Shown: piece by piece, positions 1 to 12,420 of the stretch
Position numbering within the stretch: position 1 is the stretch's first letter
How the letters are laid out: every line of letters starts with the position of its first letter
Source: an uncultured Bacteroidia bacterium
GTDB taxonomy: Bacteria; Bacteroidota; Bacteroidia; Bacteroidales; UBA932
Length of the DNA: 14,090 nucleotides
Reading direction: 5' to 3'
Assembly: GCA_902773305.1 (NCBI GenBank)
Contig: CACYEB010000060.1
Location: forward strand, 1-14,090
Translations under genes and position numbers: made by a program
The notes under the pieces: generated by a model
What the model was told of the DNA's origin: nothing
Seen by the model: the letters and a program-made list of their open reading frames with translations, nothing else
The model's database searches: none

Positions 1-194
1 CGCCCCATCTTGTAGGCAGTGTGCAGCCCCATATAGTCTATGGACGAGCGGGTCAGCTGGAGCATTACCGGGGCGTTCGCAGCCTGCGCAGCACGGGCCA
101 CGCAGGTGAGGGTTTCGTAATTATAAAAGTTGGTTGCCAGAACGGCGGTGCCTTTTGCCTGGCAGTCGTAAAGGACTTCTCGGATTGTTTTCAT
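1..194 (-). CDS. Class II ketose-bisphosphate aldolase (fructose/tagatose-bisphosphate type), N-terminal fragment
   Basis: Only the first 64 codons lie in the window; the gene continues past the left edge. Class II aldolases are zinc enzymes that reversibly split fructose- or tagatose-1,6-bisphosphate into DHAP and glyceraldehyde-3-phosphate in the cytoplasm. The visible part has the family's opening: a short helix (MKTIREVL), a strand ending in TNFYNYETL (residues 21-29, matching the usual AFNxxNxET), then a helix and the strand APVMLQLT followed by a Ser-rich turn. The zinc ligands and catalytic Asp lie beyond the edge, so fructose and tagatose specificity cannot be separated. The ATG at 194 sits 14 bp after the glpT stop, so it is probably the last or a late gene of the glp operon. 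There it could consume the DHAP made by GlpABC. Class is fairly sure; substrate is open. Confidence 0.8.
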   Translation of the reverse strand, partial: MKTIREVLYDCQAKGTAVLATNFYNYETLTCVARAAQAANAPVMLQLTRSSIDYMGLHTAYKMG

Positions 195-208
195 TCGCTA
201 TTAAAGAT

Positions 209-1588
209 TTATTTGGCAGGCTTGCGTTCTTCCTTGAGGGTGAGTCCCATAAAGAAGATGGCCAGCAGGCAGGCGGCTATCAGCAGCACAAAGGTCCATC
301 CCCAGCCGGCTTTCTGTGCCACCAGGCCTATGATTGTGTTTGCAAGTATGAACGTTCCAAGGAAGTATCCGAAGAAGCCGGTGAGGCCGGCGGCGGTGCC
401 GGCGGCGTTCTTGGGTGCAAGGTCCAGTGCCTGTACACCGATGAGCATTACTGGTCCGTAGATAAAGAACCCTATGCCGATAAGGCTGATAATAACTATT
501 GTAAGATTGTCTATGAACATCCAGTAGAGCACTACGAAAACAAGCACCAGCGCCATAAAGATCATTGTGGGCAGGGCGCGGCGGCCGTGGAAGAGTTTGT
601 CGGAGAGCCAGCCGCAGAGCAGAGTTCCGGGAATGGCGGCAAACTCGTATGCAAAGTACGCCCAGCCGGCACTCTTGAGGTCGATACCCTTTTCCGTGAG
701 GATTGTCGGCGCCCAGTCCAGACAGCCGTAGCGTACCATATAGACGAATGCGTTGGCCAGGGCTATGAACCACAGGAATTTGTTGTTGAGGACGTGGTTG
801 AAGAGGATTTCCCTGGTGGTGAGGGTGGTTTCGTGTTTCTCTGAATAGTTCTTGGGATAGTCATTACGCCAGGCTTCCACCGACTGCAGGCCGCAGGACT
901 GCGGCGTGTCGCGAAGCAGAATGTAAGCCAGCAGGGCGATGAACAGTGCCACAGCAGCCGGGAAAGCGAAAGTGCCTATCAAAAAGTAGAGTTCACTGTG
1001 GGCGCCGTAAAACCAGCTGCCGAACCAGGCGGCGCCGTAGGTGGCCATAGGGCCGACCAGCGCTCCGCCCACGTTATGGGCACAGTTCCAGATGCTCATC
1101 ATAGTGCCGCGCTCACCGGGCGAGAACCAGTGTGTCATCACACGGCCGCAGGGAGGCCAGCCCATTCCGTTGAACCATCCCACCAGGGCGTTGAGAACTC
1201 CCATCACCACAATCGCCCACATCTTGTGCCCGGCCCCTATCCACTGGATGGGAACTATCATAAAGCACATCGAAATGGCAGTAAGCACCAGTCCCAAAGG
1301 GAGGAAAACACGTGCGTTGGAGCGGTCGGAAACGCTTCCCATCAGGAATTTGGACAGGGCGTAGGCGGCGGCGTTGAGACCCAGCACAAAGCCCAGTTCG
1401 GTCTTTTCGAATCCGAGCGGAGCCATAGCCGGAATGGCCATGGAGAGGTTCTTGCGCACCAGATAGAATCCGGCGTAGCCTATGAAGGCGCCAAGGAAAA
1501 CTTGCAGGCGCAGCCGCTTGTACTTCGCATCTGCCGCAGGTCCGGTTTCCGCCGGTTTGTATTCGGGTTGTTTCAGGAATTTGAGCAT
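209..1588 (-). CDS. glpT: Glycerol-3-phosphate/phosphate antiporter GlpT
   Basis: This is a 459-residue major facilitator superfamily transporter, about the length of E. coli GlpT (about 450), with 12 predicted membrane helices. The family imports G3P across the inner membrane in exchange for inorganic phosphate. Long stretches follow the enterobacterial protein as I recall it: YLVRKN (42-47), MGSVSDRSN (83-91), GMGWPPCGR (141-149), WNCAHNVGG (167-175), RDTPQSCGL, YMVRYG (283-288), IPGTLLCGW and YGPVMLIG. The three residues assigned to phosphate or G3P binding in E. coli GlpT (Arg45, His165, Arg269) have counterparts at Arg45, His171 and Arg286, so transport of G3P rather than hexose phosphate is well supported. 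Its start overlaps the stop of the upstream phosphodiesterase gene by one base (TAATG), so the two are translationally coupled: the extracytoplasmic enzyme makes the substrate this protein imports. Confidence 0.95.
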   Translation of the reverse strand: MLKFLKQPEYKPAETGPAADAKYKRLRLQVFLGAFIGYAGFYLVRKNLSMAIPAMAPLGFEKTELGFVLGLNAAAYALSKFLMGSVSDRSNARVFLPLGLVLTAISMCFMIVPIQWIGAGHKMWAIVVMGVLNALVGWFNGMGWPPCGRVMTHWFSPGERGTMMSIWNCAHNVGGALVGPMATYGAAWFGSWFYGAHSELYFLIGTFAFPAAVALFIALLAYILLRDTPQSCGLQSVEAWRNDYPKNYSEKHETTLTTREILFNHVLNNKFLWFIALANAFVYMVRYGCLDWAPTILTEKGIDLKSAGWAYFAYEFAAIPGTLLCGWLSDKLFHGRRALPTMIFMALVLVFVVLYWMFIDNLTIVIISLIGIGFFIYGPVMLIGVQALDLAPKNAAGTAAGLTGFFGYFLGTFILANTIIGLVAQKAGWGWTFVLLIAACLLAIFFMGLTLKEERKPAK

Positions 1589-2463
1589 TATCTTACCACT
1601 TTGATTAATCTGTCGGGATAATTGGAGATGATGGCTTCTACGCCGCAGTCCACAAGGCGCTGCATCTCTTCGGGGTCATCTACAGTCCAGGGGACCACTC
1701 CGATACCGTGTGAGTGGCACCAGGCGACGTTTTCTGCAGTGACCTGCGAGGACTCGGGACTCCACCACTGCGGGACAAAGTCCAGGTTCTTCAGCAGCGA
1801 CTCGATATCTCCTCCGTCGTAATCTTCGGTGAGGTACGACAGCGTCAGCTCCGGCCACTTGGAATGTATATAGTTGAGGGCACGGGTGTCAAAACTCTGG
1901 ACAATGAGACGTTCGCCGAGATTCTTGGACAGGAGCATCGGAATGCACTTTTCGCAGAATGTTACGTAGTCGGGCCACAGTGTGCCTTCTCCCTCGCCGG
2001 GGGTCGATTTAATCTCGATGTTGTAGTTGACCGGGCTCTTGGCGTAACCTTCGGTGAAATCTATCAGGTCTGATGCAAGGGGCTTTGTGGCCGCCATCTT
2101 GACCTGATCTGGCCAGCGGTCTACGTAACGAAGCCCGACATCATACTTGGCAATACTGTCGTAGGGCATAGTGTAGAGGTACTCCTTGGGATCGCCTTCG
2201 TTTATCAGACTGCCATCGGGGCGGGTGGAATATCGGGGATGGAAATAGTTGTCGTGGGAGACCACGACCTGTCCGTCCTGAGACAGTTGCAGGTCAAACT
2301 CGAGGGTGTTTACATCCATATCCAGGGCGTTCTGCATCGCAGGTATGGTGTTTTCCGGCATAAGACCGGCTCCGCCGCGGTGTGCCTGAACGTCGATTGC
2401 CGGTTTCCCCTTGCAGCCGGACAAGATGACGGCAAGGGAAAGATAGATCAAAACTCTTTTCAT
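1588..2463 (-). CDS. glpQ: Lipoprotein glycerophosphodiester phosphodiesterase (GlpQ/UgpQ family)
   Basis: The enzyme hydrolyses glycerophosphodiesters such as deacylated phospholipid headgroups to G3P and an alcohol. The 291-residue protein begins with a lipoprotein signal peptide whose lipobox ILSGC puts the lipid-modified Cys at residue 17. The GDPD TIM-barrel motifs follow in order: HRGGAGLMPENT (His28, Arg29), LEFDLQLSQDG (Glu55, Asp57), VSHD (His70), NIEIK (Glu150, Lys152), QSFD (189-192) and VPWTVD (257-262). The start at 2463 is chosen over an in-frame ATG 69 bases upstream because it gives a clean signal peptide and an ATGA overlap with the glpC stop. Residues after the Cys (KGKPAIDV) lack the acidic run known as a surface-export signal in Bacteroidetes, so periplasm-facing anchoring is more likely than surface display. 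It would feed G3P to GlpT, encoded next. Confidence 0.9.
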   Translation of the reverse strand: MKRVLIYLSLAVILSGCKGKPAIDVQAHRGGAGLMPENTIPAMQNALDMDVNTLEFDLQLSQDGQVVVSHDNYFHPRYSTRPDGSLINEGDPKEYLYTMPYDSIAKYDVGLRYVDRWPDQVKMAATKPLASDLIDFTEGYAKSPVNYNIEIKSTPGEGEGTLWPDYVTFCEKCIPMLLSKNLGERLIVQSFDTRALNYIHSKWPELTLSYLTEDYDGGDIESLLKNLDFVPQWWSPESSQVTAENVAWCHSHGIGVVPWTVDDPEEMQRLVDCGVEAIISNYPDRLIKVVR

Positions 2464-3674
2464 ATTATGGCTTCTGCTAAAATTGATATGGGGTTCATTA
2501 CCTGATAGCCTGTGGACATTTCTATCTGCCATTTGCAGGTTTCGCAGTCACAGGCAACCACATCGGGGTTGACGGCTTTAATCTGGTTGAAGAGCGGTTC
2601 GCCGATGGCTTGGGACGCTTCGTAGTTTTCCCGCTTGAAACCGTAGGTGCCGGCTATTCCGCAGCAGGCGTCATCGAGCATCGTAAATTCCACTCCGGGT
2701 ATCATCTTAAGCAGCCTCTCGGAAAATACCCCCCAGCCGAGTTTTTCCATATGGCAAGGGGTGTGATAGGCTACGTTCTTGTGGAAACCGGGCTTGAAAT
2801 GCAACTCTGCACCCTTTTCTATCCGCTCGCAGATATAGCGGGAGGCCATCATAATGAAGTCACGTACTCCCGAATTGTCTACGCCAAGCAGCGATGGATA
2901 TTCGTCGCGGAGCGTCAGCGTGCAGGTAGATGAGGTGGTGAGCACCATCAGCCCCTTGTCCACCGCCTTTGAAAGTGCAACTATGTTGTGGTTGGCGTGC
3001 AGGGTGGCTTCGGCCTTCATCCCGTTGGTTATCATAGCGATACCACAGCATTTCTCCTTTTCCAGCAACTGTACTCCCACGCCCAGGGCGTTGAGTACCT
3101 TGACCAGATGCCGGCCAAGCCTGGGGTAGTTGTAATTGACGTAGCAGCCGTGGAAATATGCGACCTGCTCTGCGAAAGCAGCCTGTTCTTTTTCGTGACG
3201 GCCCATCCAGCTCTCAAAACTGTATGCACTGTATTTGGGGAAGGTACGCCTCCTGTCTATCTTGAACATGGCGTCCATCATCGTCTTGGTGATGCCCAGT
3301 CCGGTGACCCCGTTGACAACGGGGGCGAAGGGACGTGCCAGATGTCCCATAAAGTCGGTGGAGGCCAGCATACGGTCGCGCCATTTGACGGGGGAGGTGT
3401 CATATTTGATGCGGGCGGCCTGAATCAGGTCGGCAACCTTGACCCCGGAAGGACAGGCTACCTCGCACCGCTTGCAGTTCAGGCAATATTTGAGAGCGTA
3501 ATTGAAGAAAAACGGATCCTTTAGCCGCAACCTTTCGCCGTCGGGACCGGCCTGTTTGGGGCCGGGATAGAGTGGATTGACCTGCAGCACCGGGCAGTAG
3601 GCAGTACACACCGTGCACTTCATACACTCTTCAAAATTGTGTGAACTCTGAGTATATTCCTGAAGTTTCATCAT
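2460..3674 (-). CDS. glpC: Anaerobic glycerol-3-phosphate dehydrogenase subunit C (iron-sulfur)
   Basis: This is the iron-sulfur subunit of the GlpABC complex, which in E. coli attaches the catalytic GlpAB dimer to the membrane and passes electrons from G3P to (mena)quinone. At 404 residues it is near E. coli GlpC length (about 396). The N-terminus carries two ferredoxin-type [4Fe-4S] motifs: Cys17, 20, 23, 27 and Cys64, 67, 70, 74, each closing with CP. Two CCG-type modules follow, with CCG at 209-211 and 337-339 plus partner cysteines at 177, 251, 307, 375, 377 and 380. The same architecture occurs in heterodisulfide reductase-like and lactate/glycolate oxidase subunits, but its place directly after glpA and glpB settles the identity. 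The first of two consecutive ATG codons overlaps the glpB stop as ATGA. Confidence 0.93.
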   Translation of the reverse strand: MMKLQEYTQSSHNFEECMKCTVCTAYCPVLQVNPLYPGPKQAGPDGERLRLKDPFFFNYALKYCLNCKRCEVACPSGVKVADLIQAARIKYDTSPVKWRDRMLASTDFMGHLARPFAPVVNGVTGLGITKTMMDAMFKIDRRRTFPKYSAYSFESWMGRHEKEQAAFAEQVAYFHGCYVNYNYPRLGRHLVKVLNALGVGVQLLEKEKCCGIAMITNGMKAEATLHANHNIVALSKAVDKGLMVLTTSSTCTLTLRDEYPSLLGVDNSGVRDFIMMASRYICERIEKGAELHFKPGFHKNVAYHTPCHMEKLGWGVFSERLLKMIPGVEFTMLDDACCGIAGTYGFKRENYEASQAIGEPLFNQIKAVNPDVVACDCETCKWQIEMSTGYQVMNPISILAEAII

Positions 3675-4801
3675 TCGTCTGATTTGAGGATTTGGTCTGC
3701 CACGGCCAGTGCGCTGCGGATGGCGAGTTCGCCTCCGGAACCCAGGCCAGGACGTGTCTGTCCCAGTATGGAGCCTATGGCAAAGAGATTCCTGAGCGGT
3801 TCGCCATCCTTGAGGGGGCGCAGGTTATCGTCGCAAATTACGCCGTATTTCATATAAGGCTGCTCCCGCATGAATTCGGGGTTATACCAGTCGGTGCGGT
3901 CGGAAGCCTGTTCTACGTCAACTCCGAACACGGGCTCCGATATCTCAAAAGGATTGGACCTGAGCCCCTTTGAGAAGAAGGTGCCGGTGGCGAGGATAAA
4001 ATTGTCCGCTTCAAGGAAATGATTGCCAAGATTGTGCGTGACGATGCTGTGGACAACGCGCTCGTGGACGTGGGCGCCGGTGGCTTCGTCGCCCATCAGA
4101 TAGGTTCCGCCCAGCAGCTGGTACCGACGCTTCAAAAGCATCTGGGTGCGGATGCCGGGCACCGAAGGGGGAAGGGTTCCGACAAAGACTACCTGGGCCG
4201 GGATGCCCCCTCGTATACGGCTCGGTACCGAGGTGTCCTGGAGACCGAATACCTGAGGCAGAATGACGGTATCCTCGTCCCTGAGCAGAATCCTGACTTC
4301 ACGTACGACACTCTCCCAAATCCGGTCCATAGTGCGTGCTATCTGCACCGAACGCATTTCACTGGGACTCTTTTCCAAGTGCTCCAGTTCGGGCAGATTG
4401 AGCATTTTGATGCGACATTGCATCCCTTGCTTTTCCAGGCCCTCGGCGAGGAACTGGCAGAAGAAGTCGTGATATCCGGCGAAACTGACAATGAGTGCCC
4501 GGCTGCCTATCTTCGGCCCGGGGAAAAGGCTGATGTCCTCAAGCGAAAGGGCGGCCTTCTTGAAGGTGCCCATCGGCATCAGCCTGACGCCCGGACTGTA
4601 ATGAAGTCCGATGCCCGCTTCGGCAAACAGGTCGGTGATGCGTCCGGGAGCATCTTCTATGGACTCAAAGGTCCCGGAGAAGAAGTGCAGCGCGTTCTGC
4701 CCTTCGCTTATGATGGCGGTGCCTCTGCCGGCCTTCTGCAGGCTGATGCCGGCAACAAGGCCAGCCAGTCCTCCGCCAATTATGACAGTGTTGAATTTCA
4801 T
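3671..4801 (-). CDS. glpB: Anaerobic glycerol-3-phosphate dehydrogenase subunit B
   Basis: This is the second flavoprotein subunit of GlpABC, working with GlpA to oxidise G3P to DHAP in the cytoplasm next to the membrane. The 376-residue protein starts with a Rossmann dinucleotide-binding motif, IIGGGLAGLVAG (Gly9, Gly11, Gly14). It ends with the GlpB-type second nucleotide-contact segment, NLFAIGSILGQTRPG followed by GSGGELAIRSAL. It is about 40 residues shorter than E. coli GlpB (about 419) but shows no internal break. GlpB-type proteins are variable and poorly characterised compared with GlpA; the assignment rests on the fold plus the exact glpA-glpB-glpC order. Its ATG is 4 bp after the glpA stop and its stop overlaps the glpC start, which fits equal production of the three subunits. 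Confidence 0.9.
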   Translation of the reverse strand: MKFNTVIIGGGLAGLVAGISLQKAGRGTAIISEGQNALHFFSGTFESIEDAPGRITDLFAEAGIGLHYSPGVRLMPMGTFKKAALSLEDISLFPGPKIGSRALIVSFAGYHDFFCQFLAEGLEKQGMQCRIKMLNLPELEHLEKSPSEMRSVQIARTMDRIWESVVREVRILLRDEDTVILPQVFGLQDTSVPSRIRGGIPAQVVFVGTLPPSVPGIRTQMLLKRRYQLLGGTYLMGDEATGAHVHERVVHSIVTHNLGNHFLEADNFILATGTFFSKGLRSNPFEISEPVFGVDVEQASDRTDWYNPEFMREQPYMKYGVICDDNLRPLKDGEPLRNLFAIGSILGQTRPGLGSGGELAIRSALAVADQILKSDE

Positions 4802-4805
4802 CGGA

Positions 4806-6401
4806 TTAAATACCTAAGACGTGTTTATAAACCCACTGGGTGTATTCGGCCTCGCGCAGGGTATCTCCCCAACCTATGGGAAAATTGCCCTTCCAGCGTT
4901 CTTGCAGGAAAGCTTTCAGGTCATCGCGCTCGCGCTCTATGCAGCCGTGTGCCTTTGCCAGCAGACCGGCGGCACGGCAGGCGCAGAATTCTCCCTGACA
5001 GGTTCCCATACCGATGCGGGTGCGGCGCCTGAGGTCGGTGAGGGTAGTGGCTTCAAGATGGTCTATGGCGTCATTTACCTCTCCCACAGAAACCTCTTCG
5101 CACTCGCAGACCAGCGCTTCGTCCAGGCGGTTGCGGGTGCGCAGCCGGGCGGCGTTGTTTCCCAGGCGGGCAGCAGCCGCCTTCTGGGCGGTGGAGGGTT
5201 TCTCCCATATCTTGCGGGCGACTTCTTCGTAGGATGGCTCTCCGCTGCCGGGCAGGGGGGTGACGGCCGTCGAGCAGACCTTGTCGATATTCAGTTTGCG
5301 GCACACGGTATCAGTGGCAATCTCGGCCATCAGGCGGTAGGTCATCAGTTTTCCTCCGGTGATGGTGATGAATCCCTTGAGGCCGTCGCGCTCTTCGTGG
5401 TCAAGGCAGACGATTCCCCGGGAAATATTCCGCCCGGAAGGGTCGTCGTCGGCACTGACCAGGGGACGGACTCCTGCGTAGGCGCGCAGGATGCGGGTTG
5501 AAGAGAGACTGGGGGCCATCTTGGCTCCTTCCGTTATCAGAAGGGTAACCTCGTCGGGTGTCACGCTAACGCCGTCACACTCTTCGAACGGGATCCTGGT
5601 GGATGTGGTGCCAATGATGCAGACGGTGTCTCCTGGCACCAGGATGTCGGCATTGGAAGGTTTTCTGCAGCGGTTTATCACCATATTGTTTACGCGGTGG
5701 GCAAATACCAGCAGCGCCCCTTTTGCAGGAAACATCCCCACATTTACCCCTGCCAGAGCGGCGATGTCGTGGCCCCAGATGCCGCAGGCATTGACTGTTA
5801 CGGGAGCGAAGAAATCCTGTTCCTGCCCGGTGTTGAGGTTGCGGGTATGTACGCCGGTTATTGTGTCGCCCTCACGGATGAAGCCGGTGACGGTGGTGTG
5901 AAGGCGCACCTGCCCGCCGTGAAGCCTGGCATCCAGCATATTGGCTGCGCACAAGCGGAAAGGGTCCACACTTCCGTCGGGAACCTTGACCGCTCCCGTC
6001 AGGTCGGGGTTGACCATTGGCTCCAGCCTTTTCGCCAGCTGGGGATCTATGATCTCTGCGCTGATACCCGCCTTGCGGCAGGCCTCTACGAATGTCTGCT
6101 GATAGCTCAGATCATCTTCGGGGAGGGAGATGAAGAGCCCGTCGGTCTCGTCTATGCAGTGCGAGGCGATGCGGCGCAGAATCATATTCTCCCTGATACA
6201 CTCCTCGGCCGACTCGGGGTCGTTTACCGCATAGCGTGCGCCGGAGTGCAGCAGACCGTGGTTGCGGCCGGTCGCCCCGGTTGCTATGTCGCTGCGCTCT
6301 ATGAGCAGGGTCTTGAGACCGCGCATGGCGCAGTCCCGCTGAGTGCCGGCTCCGGTGATGCCGCCTCCTATGATTATTACGTCAAATTCGTTGTTTGCCA
6401 T
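4806..6401 (-). CDS. glpA: Anaerobic glycerol-3-phosphate dehydrogenase subunit A (FAD)
   Basis: This is the catalytic FAD subunit that oxidises sn-glycerol-3-phosphate to DHAP. It has 531 residues against about 542 in E. coli. The N-terminal FAD-binding motif is IIIGGGITGAG (Gly12, Gly14, Gly17), followed by IERSDIATGATGRNHGLLHSG (about 34-54), typical of the GlpA/GlpD DAO family. The segment FITITGGKLMTYRLMAE near residue 355 is the usual C-terminal FAD contact. A C-terminal BFD-type [2Fe-2S] domain has Cys432, Cys434, Cys468 and Cys473 (CEC ... GTCQGEFC); aerobic GlpD lacks this domain, so this is the anaerobic enzyme. The start lies 12 bp after the GH97 stop, with no gap big enough for a clear separate promoter, so it is read as the second gene of the operon. 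Confidence 0.94.
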   Translation of the reverse strand: MANNEFDVIIIGGGITGAGTQRDCAMRGLKTLLIERSDIATGATGRNHGLLHSGARYAVNDPESAEECIRENMILRRIASHCIDETDGLFISLPEDDLSYQQTFVEACRKAGISAEIIDPQLAKRLEPMVNPDLTGAVKVPDGSVDPFRLCAANMLDARLHGGQVRLHTTVTGFIREGDTITGVHTRNLNTGQEQDFFAPVTVNACGIWGHDIAALAGVNVGMFPAKGALLVFAHRVNNMVINRCRKPSNADILVPGDTVCIIGTTSTRIPFEECDGVSVTPDEVTLLITEGAKMAPSLSSTRILRAYAGVRPLVSADDDPSGRNISRGIVCLDHEERDGLKGFITITGGKLMTYRLMAEIATDTVCRKLNIDKVCSTAVTPLPGSGEPSYEEVARKIWEKPSTAQKAAAARLGNNAARLRTRNRLDEALVCECEEVSVGEVNDAIDHLEATTLTDLRRRTRIGMGTCQGEFCACRAAGLLAKAHGCIERERDDLKAFLQERWKGNFPIGWGDTLREAEYTQWVYKHVLGI

Positions 6402-6413
6402 CGGTTATGCTTT

Positions 6414-8375
6414 TTAGAATACCAGGACACATCCGCCTCCGGGGGCAAGGTGTACCGTGACTTTGCCGTCCTGGACCTTTATCTCTTCCCTGTGGTAATC
6501 CTGACCGTTGCGGTGGGCATTAGCGCCGTCTCTCCAGAGAGTGGCTCCCGAGCCGTCGGGGGCTTCAAACGGCACTTCAAAGGTGATGTCACGCTCATCC
6601 CAGTTGTTCATTGCGGCCAGATACCACCTGTCACCGCTGCGGCGGGCCATCATAATGAATTGTCCGATTGTGCCGTCCAGTGAGATGGTCTCGTCCCATA
6701 CTGTGGGTATGGAGGCGATGAAACGGGTGCATTCCTCTTCTGCCTCATAGTTTGTCGGTGCGTCGCAAAGCATTGTGAACGGTGCATCGAATATCACGTA
6801 TTCGGCCAGCTGGCGGCATCTGGTACCCTGGCTCATCGGCTCGTTGTCGCAGGGGTAGTAGTTTGCCTTGATTGCGTTGCGCATAGCGCCCTGCGTGTAG
6901 TCGCAGGGACCGGCAACCAGACGGGTGAAAGGTATTGTGACGTCATATGTGACCTGGTCGTATTCAGGACCCATCCACTTGAGTTGTTCGAGGCCGTTCA
7001 CCCCTTCGAAGTTGAGTACGTTGGGCCAGGTGCGGGTCAGTCCGGCGGGTTTGAAGGCACCGTGGAAGTCCACGAACTGATGATACTTGGCTGCGGTGCG
7101 GGCCGCCTTTTCGTAAAAGGCGACCATTGCCTGGTCGTCCCGGTTCATAAAGTCGATTTTCCAACCGGCGATGCCCATCTCGCTATAATGTCTGCACACG
7201 CCTTCCATATCACGGTTGAAAGCCCAGTAACCTGCCCACAGGACAAGCCTGACCCCTTTGCTTATTGCATAGGAGCTCAGCATCGGAAGGTCTATCTCCG
7301 GCACGACCTGCATCAAGTCAGCCTGGAGATTCACCGCCCAGCCCTCGTCCAGGATCACATATTCGATGCCGTGTGCGGCTGCAAAATCTATGTAATACTT
7401 ATATGTGTCGTTGTTGATGCCTGACTTGAAGTCCACGCCCCTGATGTTCCAGTCGTTCCACCAGTCCCAGGCAACCTTGCCGGGCTTGACCCAGGAAAAG
7501 TCGCCTTCGGAGGGTCTGGCAAGCCGCCATACAAGGTCGTTGTCGGCAAGGGCGGCATCATTGTCTGCAATGACGACTACCCTCCAGGGAAGTTCTTCCC
7601 CCTTGTCTCCCTTGTAAATGTAAGGTTCCCGCGAGGTTACTATCCCCTGCAGCATATTGTGGCCGCCCTGGACTATGGTCTTGGGAAAGGGAGCGAACAC
7701 CGCTTCCAGACCTGAGTCTCCGTCGCGGTTGCAAAGGTACATCCCGGGATAGTTCAGAAGGTCTGCTTCGGTGATGCAGATCCTTGGACCGGCAGCAGAC
7801 TCTACTGTGAGGGGAAGGAACGCCATACGGGCCGGATTCCACCGTGAAAGGGGAATGTTCGCATAAACGTTTTCAAAAGAGTTGAAGAACTGCTGCTCGA
7901 AATTGCCGCCGTCCCTCACGTATGGAATCCAGGCCATCGGGTCGCCGGGAAAGTTGAATTCAGCAGTTTCGGAAGCTATTTCCTCTCCTTTTTTTGTGAC
8001 GAAGCGATAAGCCACGCCGTCGTCAGAGACACGGAATATCAGGTCAAAATCTTTAGATATCAGCTTTATCTGGTTATAATTGTCGTGTACCTTGCTGCGT
8101 TTGAAGTTCCGTGCTGGGAGCACTTCGTCTCTACCAGTGCGCTGAACCTTTCGGAATCTGGTATTCTGCCCGTAAACGCATCCGTCGGTGAGCGTCAGGC
8201 CCAATCGGGAGGGGGCAATAAGTTGCGCGCCATCTTTGCTGACACTCCAAGTCAGAGTTTCGCCGCTCTGAATCAGCAAATTGATCTTTCCGTCAGGGGA
8301 AGTTACCCGGTAGTCTTTTGCCTGTGTGCAAATTGCCGTAAGCATCGTTGCGATGCAAATCAGGATCTTCTTCAT
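6414..8375 (-). CDS. GH97 family alpha-glycosidase, retaining-type signature (possible alpha-galactosidase)
   Basis: This is a secreted glycoside hydrolase of family GH97, the family of SusB and BtGH97b of Bacteroides thetaiotaomicron. The 653-residue protein has a cleavable signal peptide (cut probably after Ala19), an N-terminal beta-sandwich (about 21-275), a (beta/alpha)8 barrel (about 276-550) and a C-terminal beta domain ending in VHLAPGGG. From memory of the family, inverting alpha-glucosidases carry a Glu general base in an HEAVRPTG-like motif, whereas retaining alpha-galactosidases replace it with Gly and use an Asp one strand earlier. Here WKIDFMNRDDQ supplies Asp408, and the other site reads HGAFKPAG with Gly439, so the retaining class is predicted. 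Glu457 and Glu463 are candidate acid/base or calcium ligands. There is no lipobox, so it is probably periplasmic. It heads the glp operon 12 bp before glpA, which is unusual. Family is certain; sugar specificity is inferred. Confidence 0.93.
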   Translation of the reverse strand: MKKILICIATMLTAICTQAKDYRVTSPDGKINLLIQSGETLTWSVSKDGAQLIAPSRLGLTLTDGCVYGQNTRFRKVQRTGRDEVLPARNFKRSKVHDNYNQIKLISKDFDLIFRVSDDGVAYRFVTKKGEEIASETAEFNFPGDPMAWIPYVRDGGNFEQQFFNSFENVYANIPLSRWNPARMAFLPLTVESAAGPRICITEADLLNYPGMYLCNRDGDSGLEAVFAPFPKTIVQGGHNMLQGIVTSREPYIYKGDKGEELPWRVVVIADNDAALADNDLVWRLARPSEGDFSWVKPGKVAWDWWNDWNIRGVDFKSGINNDTYKYYIDFAAAHGIEYVILDEGWAVNLQADLMQVVPEIDLPMLSSYAISKGVRLVLWAGYWAFNRDMEGVCRHYSEMGIAGWKIDFMNRDDQAMVAFYEKAARTAAKYHQFVDFHGAFKPAGLTRTWPNVLNFEGVNGLEQLKWMGPEYDQVTYDVTIPFTRLVAGPCDYTQGAMRNAIKANYYPCDNEPMSQGTRCRQLAEYVIFDAPFTMLCDAPTNYEAEEECTRFIASIPTVWDETISLDGTIGQFIMMARRSGDRWYLAAMNNWDERDITFEVPFEAPDGSGATLWRDGANAHRNGQDYHREEIKVQDGKVTVHLAPGGGCVLVF

Positions 8376-8408: not shown

Positions 8409-8438
8409 TAAAGGTAGTAAAAATATTTATTAGGACAA
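8409..8438 (-). promoter_or_regulatory. Predicted promoter of the GH97-glp operon
   Basis: Read on the minus strand, TTG (8438-8436) is followed after 19 bp by TACCTTTA (8416-8409). This matches the Bacteroidota layout TTTG-N19-21-TAnnTTTG except for the last base of the -7 box. It predicts a transcript start near 8402 and a leader of roughly 27 nt before the GH97 ATG at 8375. It is the only plausible match in the intergenic region on this strand. No experimental support is available. Confidence 0.45.
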
Positions 8439-8497: not shown

Positions 8498-8707
8498 ATG
8501 CAAGAGAATGACGGCAAATACATCTTCGGGGTAGTGAAGGTGGGGGACAAGGGGCAGATCGTGATTCCGCGCGACGCCCGCAAGATATATGACATCAAAC
8601 CGGGAGATGCCCTCCTTATGCTGGGAGACCGGAAGGGGATGGCGATACTCAAGACAGAAGTGTTCCAGGCGGCGATTGACCAGACTATGGAGGACATTGT
8701 AAAATGA
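8498..8707 (+). CDS. AbrB/SpoVT-type transcriptional regulator
   Basis: This is a 69-residue protein made almost wholly of one SpoVT/AbrB swapped-hairpin DNA-binding domain: VVKVGDKGQIVIPRDARK (about 12-29), then YDIKPGDALLMLGDRKGMAI, with a short helical tail. Proteins of this family bind DNA as dimers or higher multimers, act as stand-alone regulators or antitoxins, and often control their own operon. No toxin gene is adjacent; the next gene encodes a membrane acyltransferase, overlapping by ATGA, so an antitoxin role is unlikely. It sits divergent to the GH97-glp operon across 122 bp containing both promoters, so it could regulate one or both units. Domain assignment is firm; the target is inferred only from position. 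Confidence 0.9.
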   Translation: MQENDGKYIFGVVKVGDKGQIVIPRDARKIYDIKPGDALLMLGDRKGMAILKTEVFQAAIDQTMEDIVK

Positions 8708-9831
8708 GAAGACACTGGATTGACAATCTGAGATGGACCACCGTGCTTCTGGTGTTGTTGTATCACGTTATCTATTTTTACAACAACAAGGGAGTCTTTG
8801 GCGGCATAGGCGGCTTTGGCGAATGGCCGGGCTGTCCACAGTATCAGGACGTGGTGATGTATATCCTGTATCCGTGGTTCATGCCGCTGCTGTTTATACT
8901 GGCGGGTATCAGTTCCCGATATGCGCTGGCGAAACATCCGGGAAAGGAGTGGCTGCGCAGCCGCACCCGTAAGTTGCTTGTACCCGGTACGATAGGCTTA
9001 TTCGTATTCCAATGGATGGTGGGCTACTTCAATACCGCCGTGGCTGAGAGGACGGGTGTCTTTGACGGTGTTCCGGCAGTGGTGAAGTATGTTATAATGG
9101 CGGTCAGCGGCACAGGTCCGCTGTGGTTTATCCAGGATTTGTGGCTGTTCTCCCTGCTCCTGCTGCTTGTTCGCAAGTTGGATGCAAAGGGACGTTTCTA
9201 TGAGTGGTGGGGAAAAACAGCCAGTAGCAAAGTCGGTATCATACCGATCGTCCTTTTGGGAGTCCTCTTCTGGGTAGGAGAGCAGACTCTTATAAAGAAT
9301 CCCCGTCCCGCTACTATGGACGGTCTGCTGAACCTTTACAAGCCGCTGTTTTATATAATTCCCTTCCTGCTGGGCTATTTCGTTTTCTCGCACGAGGCGA
9401 TTCAGGAACGCTTACGGCAGACGTGGATTCCACTGCTCGCCTGTGCCGTGGTTGCCGGCGGCATCCTGATCGGAACGACTTTCGGTCAGGACAATACGTC
9501 GCCGCAGTATTTGGGCAGCCCGCTCAACTGCATCTATGGTTGGCTCGCCTGCCTGGCGATGATGGGATGGTTCGCAGCCCGTTTCGACTGCACGTCGGCC
9601 TTTGCGGGCTATATGACCCGTTCGAGTTACGGCATCTATATCGTCCACTACCTTGTAATCGCCAGTCTGGGATATATGATGAAGCAGTATACCCAGCTGC
9701 CGCCGGTTGCCATGTATGTGATTCTTGCGGCCGCGGTATTCACACTGTCGCCTTTGATCTACGAAATCCTGAAAAGAATACCGCTTATCAGATGGTGCGT
9801 ATTGGGAGAAAAAGGGGTTATCAGCACCTGA
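8704..9831 (+). CDS. Integral-membrane acyltransferase (acyltransferase 3 family)
   Basis: This 375-residue polytopic membrane protein of the acyltransferase 3 (OafA/NodX/ExoZ-like) family has about 10 hydrophobic segments. The family moves acyl groups, commonly acetyl, across or onto the face of the cytoplasmic membrane, modifying surface polysaccharides, lipids or exported small molecules. Visible hallmarks are the N-terminal RRHWIDNLRW (Arg10) leading into a helix with LLYHVIYF (His21, the conserved family His), the segment RSRTRKLLVPGTIG after the second or third helix, GPLWFIQDLWL, and SYGIYIVHYL near the C-terminus. There is no fused SGNH domain, so acyl transfer would rely on the membrane domain alone. 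Its start overlaps the AbrB gene stop (ATGA). Its last 11 bases overlap the end of the convergent kinase gene. The acceptor cannot be predicted. Confidence 0.88.
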   Translation: MRRHWIDNLRWTTVLLVLLYHVIYFYNNKGVFGGIGGFGEWPGCPQYQDVVMYILYPWFMPLLFILAGISSRYALAKHPGKEWLRSRTRKLLVPGTIGLFVFQWMVGYFNTAVAERTGVFDGVPAVVKYVIMAVSGTGPLWFIQDLWLFSLLLLLVRKLDAKGRFYEWWGKTASSKVGIIPIVLLGVLFWVGEQTLIKNPRPATMDGLLNLYKPLFYIIPFLLGYFVFSHEAIQERLRQTWIPLLACAVVAGGILIGTTFGQDNTSPQYLGSPLNCIYGWLACLAMMGWFAARFDCTSAFAGYMTRSSYGIYIVHYLVIASLGYMMKQYTQLPPVAMYVILAAAVFTLSPLIYEILKRIPLIRWCVLGEKGVIST

Positions 9832-10711
9832 AGTCCTTGTCCACGTAGTTGAACAGACTTGCCACCACGTTGGCAGAGAAACTGTGGGCTATGGGGACGA
9901 TTCTGTCCCAGTCTGGTTCCTTCAATTTGAGAAGTGCATAGATGACACCGGCGTTGAAGTTGTCGCCGGCGCCTATTGTGCTCACTACGGAAGTGCCATG
10001 TGCAACCGGATAGCAGCGCTTCATTCCTGGTGAAAACACTTCCGTCTCACGGGCACCCTTGGTGCAGATAAAGTTACTGCAGAGCGGCTCGATGTGCTTC
10101 TGATAGACTTCTGCGGCATTTGTTGTGCCGTAAAGCGCCTGGATATCTTCTGAGGAACCGCGCACTATGTCTGCCAGGGCTATATTCTCTTCTGTCTGTT
10201 GAAGCGAGTCGCCGGCACGGTGGTTCTTCCTGAAGTTGATGTCGTAATATATCGTCGCGCCCGCCTTTTTGGCTTTGCGGACGACGGCACGGACCTGGTT
10301 CCTGGTAGCCGGATTGATGGCGAAGAAAGAGCCGAAGAGGACGATGTCGCCGCTGGAGAAATCCAGTTCCGGCACCTTGAACGGGGGCAGGTTCCGGTCG
10401 CGGAAAAATTCATAGCTGGCGTTGTTGTCTTCGTCCAGCATCGCCAGGGAGATGGAACTCTGGCCTTCAGCACGGATTATGCCTTCGCTTCCAATGCCGT
10501 TCTCTCTCAGGAAAGAGACCACGATGTCGCCTACGGCATCGTTTCCGACCTGTGTAATCATCCTCAGTCCTGTCCCCGGAAAATCGCGGCCGGCGGTTCG
10601 GCCAAGGGATATCATTGCGTTGAGTGTGGAGCCTCCGGGGACTGCGGCCTGCGGCTGCATCTTTTTTAATACTATGTCAAGTACGGTTTCTCCGATGCCG
10701 GTAATTGTCAT
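9821..10711 (-). CDS. PfkB-family carbohydrate kinase (fructokinase/ribokinase-like)
   Basis: A cytoplasmic ATP-dependent sugar kinase of 296 residues, a normal length for the ribokinase/fructokinase family. The first PfkB signature is AVPGGSTLNAMISLGR (about 23-38), where the sugar-binding Gly-Gly lies. The second is STIGAGDNFNAG (244-254), with the anion hole Gly-Ala-Gly and the catalytic base Asp250. The usual Asp two residues before the anion-hole segment (DTxGAGD) is Ser244 here; I believe this variant recurs in Bacteroidetes homologues, and the catalytic Asp is intact, so the enzyme should be active. The N-terminus is compact, without an extended lid insert. The start is 9 bp after the EamA transporter stop, making it the last gene of the five-gene operon. 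The substrate cannot be fixed from sequence. Confidence 0.88.
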   Translation of the reverse strand: MTITGIGETVLDIVLKKMQPQAAVPGGSTLNAMISLGRTAGRDFPGTGLRMITQVGNDAVGDIVVSFLRENGIGSEGIIRAEGQSSISLAMLDEDNNASYEFFRDRNLPPFKVPELDFSSGDIVLFGSFFAINPATRNQVRAVVRKAKKAGATIYYDINFRKNHRAGDSLQQTEENIALADIVRGSSEDIQALYGTTNAAEVYQKHIEPLCSNFICTKGARETEVFSPGMKRCYPVAHGTSVVSTIGAGDNFNAGVIYALLKLKEPDWDRIVPIAHSFSANVVASLFNYVDKDFRC

Positions 10712-11660: not shown

Positions 11661-12110
11661 TCAGTTGTTATCGAGCATTGCCGCGCAGCCTTCGGTCAGG
11701 TCGTTGTAGGTCTGCTCAAAATCTCCGGTATACCAGGGGTCGGCGACATCGCGCATCTTGCCTGCATAGGACATCATCAAGCGGACCTTGCCATCTGGAT
11801 CCTCCGGAAAGAAACGCTTTATGAGGCGGAGATTGGAGGCGTCCATACATATTATGGTGTCGAAACGGCCGTAATCGGAACGGGTGATCTGCCTCGACCT
11901 TTTCTGCGGGTCGAACCAGACGCCGTGCCGCTCAAGGCACCGCTTTGCCGGGGGATAAATCGGGTTGCCCATCTCCTCGTCGGAGACCGCCGCCGACTCG
12001 ATATGGAAGCGGTCTTCGCTCCCGCGACTCTTCACCATCGCCTTGAGTATAAACTCGGCCATCGCACTCCGGCAGATGTTTCCGTGGCAGACAAACAGTA
12101 TTCGGTTCAT
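11661..12110 (-). CDS. Low-molecular-weight protein tyrosine phosphatase
   Basis: A 149-residue cytoplasmic phosphatase of the LMW-PTP family, normal length. The N-terminal P-loop CHGNICRS (8-15) has the CX5R signature with nucleophile Cys8, Arg14 and the supporting Cys13 and Ser15. The general-acid loop is DPWY (Asp124 to Tyr127), as in bacterial enzymes such as Wzb or YwlE. The family removes phosphate from tyrosine kinases controlling polysaccharide export, or from phosphoarginine in some Firmicutes. No tyrosine kinase or polysaccharide gene lies nearby, so this is likely a housekeeping-type or stress-related phosphatase rather than a capsule regulator. Its ATG overlaps the stop of the small GH97-like gene by ATGA, coupling their translation. 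Confidence 0.93.
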   Translation of the reverse strand: MNRILFVCHGNICRSAMAEFILKAMVKSRGSEDRFHIESAAVSDEEMGNPIYPPAKRCLERHGVWFDPQKRSRQITRSDYGRFDTIICMDASNLRLIKRFFPEDPDGKVRLMMSYAGKMRDVADPWYTGDFEQTYNDLTEGCAAMLDNN

Positions 12111-12403
12111 TTTTGACAGATAATCATAGCGAAGCCGCCGCCGGGAGCCATATGGACCTTCATACGGGACGATGAATCCACTTGCAAGGTTTCCAATTTA
12201 TAGTCGGTGGCCACTTTGCCCGAGAGAATCCTTGTGGAGTCCATTATGGTCTCGCCGTTCACGGCCAGGATCCTGGTCGTGGTACCTCTCCCCGCTGAGA
12301 TGCTCATCTGCAGGCGTCCGGAAGGGCAGCTTACAGAATACACCTTGGCACTGATCGAGGTGACCAGCATCAAGGCAAAGAGAGATACAAGTATTCTTTT
12401 CAT
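12107..12403 (-). CDS. Small secreted protein resembling the fused N- and C-terminal ends of GH97 (catalytic barrel absent)
   Basis: The 98-residue product has a signal peptide (MKRILVSLFALMLVTSISA, cut probably after Ala19). It then has AKVYSVSCPSGRLQMSISAG, which parallels AKDYRVTSPDGKINLLIQSG in the GH97 enzyme of this window. The end, DYKLETLQV ... MKVHMAPGGG (67-90), parallels DYHREEIKV ... VTVHLAPGGG at the extreme C-terminus of that enzyme. The join lies around residues 56-66; about 550 residues including the catalytic barrel are missing, so no glycosidase activity is possible. The frame is open and the stop overlaps the phosphatase start by ATGA, so it looks like a maintained gene rather than decaying DNA. 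An ATG 9 bases upstream (12412) is possible; 12403 is preferred because MKRIL matches the MKKIL start of GH97. Function is unknown; a binding or chaperone-like beta protein is conceivable. Confidence 0.75.
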   Translation of the reverse strand: MKRILVSLFALMLVTSISAKVYSVSCPSGRLQMSISAGRGTTTRILAVNGETIMDSTRILSGKVATDYKLETLQVDSSSRMKVHMAPGGGFAMIICQK

Positions 12404-12420
12404 AGTTACCATCCATCGTC

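Follow-up and report, generated by a model that had tools for sequence, protein, structure and literature searches.

A GH97 alpha-galactosidase gene at the head of the glycerol/glycerol 3-phosphate respiration cluster in one clade of rumen Bacteroidales

The locus and its closest described counterparts

In Escherichia coli, the glp genes are arranged as glpABC, glpTQ and glpFK, and in enteric bacteria glpABC and glpTQ are divergent operons with no glycosidase gene. The same route, with GlpT-like import, GlpFK and GlpABC leading to dihydroxyacetone phosphate (DHAP), was recognized around a 14,090-bp stretch of DNA (the window) from an uncultured Bacteroidia bacterium (assembly GCA_902773305.1, contig CACYEB010000060.1). 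Unlike in E. coli, the window and its close relatives carry a single glpABC-(Q)-T string, with glpF-glpK nearby on the opposite strand and the gene of a GH97 alpha-galactosidase at the head. Seven minus-strand open reading frames (ORFs) follow each other in the order GH97, glpA, glpB, glpC, glycerophosphodiester phosphodiesterase (GDPD) lipoprotein, glpT and class II aldolase, separated by 12, 4, -4, -4, -1 and 14 bp (Table 1). These coordinates bear out the gene order, the single strand and the spacing of -4 to 14 bp given in a preliminary description made from the sequence alone. The nearest database records are metagenome-assembled genomes (MAGs) of Bacteroidales or Bacteroidia, many of which name the rumen, reticulum or omasum.

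Two of the encoded proteins have characterized relatives. BT1871, a GH97 alpha-galactosidase of Bacteroides thetaiotaomicron, is needed for the use of raffinose-family sugars and cleaves melibiose, and its gene shares PUL24 with those of a SusC-like transporter and of a beta-glucosidase (PMC11501099). The window enzyme belongs to the same NCBIfam family, matches it nearly full length and keeps the catalytic D and E, its gene heading a glp string instead. The GlpQ teichoicase of Bacillus subtilis shares the GDPD family (PF03009) with the window lipoprotein. According to PMC7086022, that enzyme is specific for sn-glycerol-3-phosphate; lipoteichoic acid (LTA) is built of sn-glycerol-1-phosphate and is barely attacked unless precleaved, in which case glycerol 3-phosphate (G3P) is released, and a glycosylated glycerophosphate unit on wall teichoic acid (WTA) halts the enzyme.

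The GH97-glp arrangement is a clade-wide operon head, and more than the noise of one genome. Its base would be the standard cluster for anaerobic respiration of glycerol/G3P in one rumen Bacteroidales family, consisting of glpABC-glpT and frequently accompanied by glpF-glpK. Within a single clade of one genus, the gene of an alpha-galactosidase resembling BT1871 would have taken the head position, and it now presumably carries the promoter. We lean, with somewhat better than even confidence, towards a lineage-specific operon serving alpha-galactosides together with glycerol/G3P. GH97, acting outside the inner membrane, would split galactose off plant alpha-galactosides, glycerol would enter via GlpF and be phosphorylated by GlpK, G3P—supplied in this genome by the GDPD—would be imported via GlpT, and GlpABC would oxidize G3P to DHAP. 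Most likely, the two halves are regulated jointly to exploit plant cell contents as a single food source and do not act in succession on one molecule.

Conservation of GH97 upstream of glpA and the putative promoter

The genus was sampled with 26 genomes, including that of the window, and 18 of them had a GlpA match. Twelve genomes with GlpA 88-100% identical to that of the window are referred to as the clade; the other six showed 53-59% identity over the longest match. GH97 was located upstream of glpA on the same strand in all 12 clade genomes, one of them (G113) by a presumed linkage across a contig break, the GH97-Tricorn pair being close to a contig end and glpA at the beginning of a different contig. 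It directly precedes glpA in seven (G000, which is the genome of the window, G051, G230, G033, G169, G153 and G102). In G091, G175 and G210, a gene for a Tricorn-like protease lies between the two, and in G124 first a PfkB-family kinase gene and then, next to glpA, the Tricorn gene, with GH97 split into two frames. The pairing, which the preliminary description had put forward for checking in other genomes, is therefore not confined to this one.

Where the Tricorn-like gene (L004:6574-9921, L124, L126, L131, and L130 at a contig end) shares a contig with glpA, as in four genomes, 3 to 4 bp separate the two. In L121 (G124:C1), GH97 and glpT are each broken into two frames, pointing to assembly indels or decay. 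In G188, G226, G231, G243, G267 and G273, the GlpA-like match covers only residues ~3-6 to 385 of frames of 665-853 aa, possibly representing a GlpA variant with a different C-terminal part.

The arrangement with GH97 at the head of glpA was absent from the loci examined outside the clade. The six non-clade genomes of the genus with GlpA gave no GH97 match (1e-50) on any glpA-bearing contig. Of the 80 named GlpA loci, 60 extend 3 kb or more upstream of glpA; five of these (L003, L004, L005, L007 and L068) have GH97 within 5 kb, all of them belonging to the clade and included in its 12 genomes above; in L037, a 37% identical GH97 piece lies 9.3 kb upstream of glpA. Outside the genus, the positions of GH97 matches (1e-40, a cut-off that overlooks more distant GH97s) were compared by eye in 66 GlpA-bearing genomes (57 from the family, nine from the order), and a single one was found within 10 kb of the GlpA locus, in G211. 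A limited literature search returned no report of a GH97-headed glp arrangement.

A second GH97 was also encountered. The 101-aa ORF at 12107-12412 (-) of the window is a decayed remnant that has lost the catalytic domain: aligned with the second GH97 of L122, which is intact, its residues 4-61 correspond to 1-58 and its residues 62-98 to 611-647. The close relatives G230 and G033 retain the full gene nearby. The GH97 of G211 (L148, 2587-4554, minus strand) is ~35% identical to this second GH97 and lies on the same strand, 2.7 kb downstream of glpC.

The pattern has a rival reading, chance juxtaposition kept via common descent: GH97 would have come to lie upstream of glpA a single time, with read-through taking over from the glpA promoter and no physiology being shared. 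Outside the clade, the genes upstream of glpA are indeed a mixed bag (AnmK, OPT, ChlI/AAA_25, DUF1846, DUF6340, MIP, radical SAM and others), and no theme was shared among the 17 same-strand genes scanned, four of which had no Pfam match; counting the L004 Tricorn gene as well, the scan covered 18 of 44 ORFs lying upstream on the same strand. The protease gene standing between GH97 and glpA in five of the 12 clade genomes, and the confinement of the head arrangement to the clade at the loci examined, also suit this reading. Against it, GH97 stays upstream in 12 of 12 genomes even though the intact clade GH97 proteins are only 78-83% identical to that of the window and the genes beyond GH97 vary. 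We regard chance juxtaposition as unlikely, albeit as a serious contender.

A promoter-like motif bears on the lineage-specific operon that we prefer. TAnnTTTG is the -7 consensus of Bacteroides fragilis according to PMC7366714, and TAnnTTT[AG] was searched in the 110 bp 5' of glpA. It occurred in 49 of 73 non-clade loci, mostly 25-35 bases ahead of the glpA start in the 60 such loci displayed, against a single-base shuffle mean of 7.5, the loci being related and the counts hence not independent. This set comprised the 74 named loci L008-L082 minus L068, without L022, which has 60 bases upstream only. In comparison, none of 11 clade loci (G113 was dropped because of the contig edge) had the motif before glpA (Fisher P 2e-5), in a stretch that is coding there and would seldom contain the motif in any case (0.1 of 11 on average after shuffling). 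Nine of the 12 clade genomes have it 5' of GH97 instead; the exceptions are G230 and G033, with the PfkB gene ending 13 bp short of GH97, and G091, with a SpoIIE-domain gene ending 1 bp short of it. As controls, the motif was found before glpB in 1 of 80, before glpC in 0 of 71 and before glpT in 0 of 46 of the named loci. A sigma-70 scan of the window was of little use for Bacteroidales promoters. A motif 5' of GH97 and none 5' of the clade glpA supports co-transcription of GH97 with the glp genes and fits a shift of the operon promoter to the front of GH97. The preliminary description had taken co-transcription as given; it has gained the promoter-like site, while the linkage in one transcript is what we infer from it.

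Several points weigh against the preferred reading. The motif was picked after the stretches upstream of the clade GH97 had been inspected, and it precedes glpK in only 6 of 34 loci; the relatedness of the loci and the coding nature of the clade stretch, given above, also lower the force of the counts. The clade neighbourhood is fluid, with the Tricorn protease, PfkB, aldolase and GDPD genes coming and going, and therefore the placement of GH97 could be near-neutral. Finally, the deletion of two BT1871 homologues in Bacteroides ovatus caused no defect with raffinose-family sugars, as reported in PMC11501099, so that homology to BT1871 does not settle the role of GH97.

Table 1. Positions of predicted genes and of the promoter-like element in the window
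Feature	Position	Strand	Remarks
GH97 retaining alpha-galactosidase (by family)	6414..8375	-	653 aa; PF10566, NF053844, PDB 3a24 matches
glpA, anaerobic G3P dehydrogenase subunit A	4806..6401	-	531 aa; DAO + BFD-like domains; TIGR03377
glpB	3671..4801	-	376 aa; TIGR03378
glpC, iron-sulfur subunit	2460..3674	-	404 aa; TIGR03379
GlpQ-like glycerophosphodiester phosphodiesterase, lipoprotein	1588..2463	-	291 aa; LSGC lipobox; PF03009, LPAM_1
glpT-like organophosphate:phosphate antiporter	209..1588	-	459 aa; TIGR00712 best family
Class II aldolase, cut at contig edge	1..194	-	64 codons visible; PF01116
Promoter-like -7 element TACCTTTA	8409..8416	-	41 to 34 bases 5' of GH97 start
PfkB-family sugar kinase	9821..10711	-	PF00294 93.7 bits
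Acyltransferase (PF01757), divergent	8704-9831	+	between PfkB and GH97

The encoded enzymes

The GH97 protein scored 336 bits on PF10566, 974 bits on NF053844 (cut-off 800) and 810 bits against PDB 3a24, a near full-length match across residues 25-651; we take 3a24 to be BtGal97b, that is, BT1871. Residues D408 and E457 align to the conserved D and E of 3a24 and are presumably the catalytic Asp nucleophile and the Glu acid/base, respectively; chain 5e1q has G at the position of the catalytic D. On these family matches, the enzyme is classed as a retaining alpha-galactosidase of the BtGal97b type. Its N-terminus, as judged by eye, is signal-peptide-like (MKKILICIATMLTAICTQAKDY), and the location is probably periplasmic. 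No SusC/SusD pair was found at the locus, the largest window ORF (653 aa) being below SusC size, nor among 10 clade neighbour genes scanned, and therefore the locus is not a polysaccharide utilization locus (PUL) in the sense used for Bacteroidetes. The 10 genes scanned upstream of the clade GH97 likewise contained no gene set of a raffinose-family oligosaccharide (RFO) or lipid type.

A PfkB gene occurs near GH97 in six of the 12 clade genomes and is separated from it in the window by the divergent acyltransferase gene. The kinase reaches the cut-off in none of the 14 NCBIfam families listed for it and has no clear substrate class; it is a possible partner of GH97, and a PfkB beside GH97 would suit an oligosaccharide role. 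The acyltransferase also lies between PfkB and GH97 in G169 (L125), and not in G230 and G033.

The adjacent GlpA (772 bits on TIGR03377, cut-off 553), GlpB (322 bits on TIGR03378, cut-off 174, albeit under the cut-offs of the PRK05329 GlpB models) and GlpC (575 bits on TIGR03379, cut-off 280) all exceed the curated TIGR cut-offs and by family constitute an anaerobic G3P dehydrogenase. The transporter has TIGR00712 as the best of 12 families, yet with 554 bits it is under the cut-off of 633, and it passes the PgtP-type subfamily model TIGR00881 (416 vs. 408); it is therefore named GlpT-like. The aldolase fragment scored 44.5 bits on PF01116 over 64 aa. Its full-length counterpart in L007 (274 aa, 284 bits) is 98% identical over the shared part, and an aldolase gene follows glpT in three of the 10 clade loci with glpC and glpT seen (G000, G230 and G033).

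Glycerol kinase, the GlpQ-like protein and candidate substrates

The preliminary description had noted no glycerol kinase gene and concluded that the pathway was built for G3P rather than free glycerol; this conclusion fell with the genome data. The window is the entire contig C60 of a 1.54-Mb genome in 256 contigs (70% complete), and the same genome encodes glpK at G000:C212:727-2190 (741.7 bits, cut-off 590). Contig C212 starts inside glpF, followed by glpK, an unnamed gene and an Omp85 gene, and is collinear with L007 from base 16359. Base 1 of the window corresponds to L007 base 15541, so that, given the order in L007, glpF-glpK would lie ~0.8 kb past the window edge. Most likely, glpK sits just beyond the window end, provided that the join between the two contigs follows the L007 order. 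The absence of the kinase from the window thus reflects the contig edge at which the window stops. All 8 clade loci that reach far enough have glpF-glpK (GlpF being assigned via the MIP subfamily model) past glpT, within 3 kb of it and on the opposite strand. Among named loci with at least 8 kb past glpA, glpK was present in the fetched stretch of 31 of 39 that have glpT, vs. 2 of 21 without it. The kinase in the genome itself, the collinearity of C212 and the glpF-glpK pair of the clade rule out a kinase-free G3P pathway. The presence of glpF-glpK puts free glycerol, that derived from galactosylglycerols included, on a par with G3P as a candidate substrate.

This brings in the use of galactolipid head groups, whereby GH97, a beta-galactosidase and GlpF/GlpK/GlpABC would process one molecule sequentially. 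The terminal galactose of the digalactosyldiacylglycerol (DGDG) head group is alpha-linked. DGDG would be deacylated, GH97 would take the terminal alpha-galactose, the beta-galactosidase would free glycerol, and GlpF/GlpK/GlpABC would burn it. The family of GH97, the rumen, reticulum or omasum named in many related records, and the proximity of glpF-glpK in relatives, which would provide for the step that uses free glycerol, agree with such a sequence. However, neither a lipase nor a beta-galactosidase was found in a search confined to selected neighbour genes, a title-level literature search gave nothing on this link, and BT1871 acts on raffinose-family sugars (PMC11501099). We consider the galactolipid route rather improbable; since it describes one particular use of the same operon, its odds overlap with those of the preferred reading. 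If true, digalactosylglycerol from chloroplast lipids would induce and feed both gene sets, making this a dedicated operon, and Bacteroidales would have a route for the sugar-glycerol remaining after rumen lipid hydrolysis.

The listed ORF of the GDPD opens at 2532, and the lipoprotein signal begins at the ATG at 2463. The protein scored 111.5 bits on PF03009 and 20.3 bits on LPAM_1 and, unlike the B. subtilis teichoicase, is below the GlpQ-type NCBIfam cut-offs, as it is for all four families listed (for example, PRK09454 83 vs. 264 and PRK11143 36 vs. 254); carrying the domain but missing these equivalog cut-offs, it is named GlpQ-like. Only this genome has it between glpC and glpT among the 10 clade loci with both genes seen. 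A whole-genome search (1e-10) found homologues in seven of the 26 genus genomes, namely the own one and six outside the clade, and none in the other 11 clade genomes, which are incomplete and in which other GDPD types were not searched. Four of the six non-clade loci were fetched (L150-L153): GlpQ is directly before glpT, and no glpABC lies within the fetched stretches. GlpQ occurs in 15 of 44 named loci with glpC and glpT in view, and GH97 was within 5 kb upstream in none of these 15, two of which (L013 and L052) have less than 3 kb upstream. GlpQ and the aldolase are optional members of the clade gene string. GH97-GlpQ as a conserved unit is rejected on the counts in the clade loci (1 of 10), the other clade genomes (0 of 11) and the named loci (0 of 15), and the conservation of GH97 next to glpABC-glpQ-glpT envisaged in the preliminary description does not extend beyond this genome in the clade.

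These counts bear on the substrate originally proposed, an alpha-glycosylated glycerophosphate: GH97 would strip a blocking sugar, GlpQ would release G3P and GlpT would import it, the source being alpha-galactosylated WTA, precleaved LTA or glycosylated glycerophosphodiesters. Since glycosylation stops the B. subtilis enzyme (PMC7086022), a sugar-removing partner would be sensible chemistry, and in this genome GH97, GDPD and GlpT do stand in one gene string. However, the main argument for this salvage was lost with glpK present in the genome, a GlpQ homologue was not found in 11 of the 12 clade genomes within the limits given above, and the 15 GlpQ-bearing named loci, two of them short-flanked, showed no GH97 within 5 kb upstream. 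As regards the LTA fragments suggested earlier, PMC7086022 also makes intact LTA a poor GlpQ substrate, and by analogy it is an unlikely one here; precleaved LTA yields G3P there, so that LTA fragments are possible as a substrate, if a weak candidate. Overall, we hold glycerophosphate salvage to be very improbable.

The contig edge at this locus is an example of how a false "missing enzyme" argument can arise. If the co-regulation of GH97 with the glp genes is real, it would assign to a Bacteroidales clade, represented here by MAGs only, a niche in the rumen that can be tested, namely alpha-galactosides plus glycerol, and may hint at the fate of galactolipid head groups.

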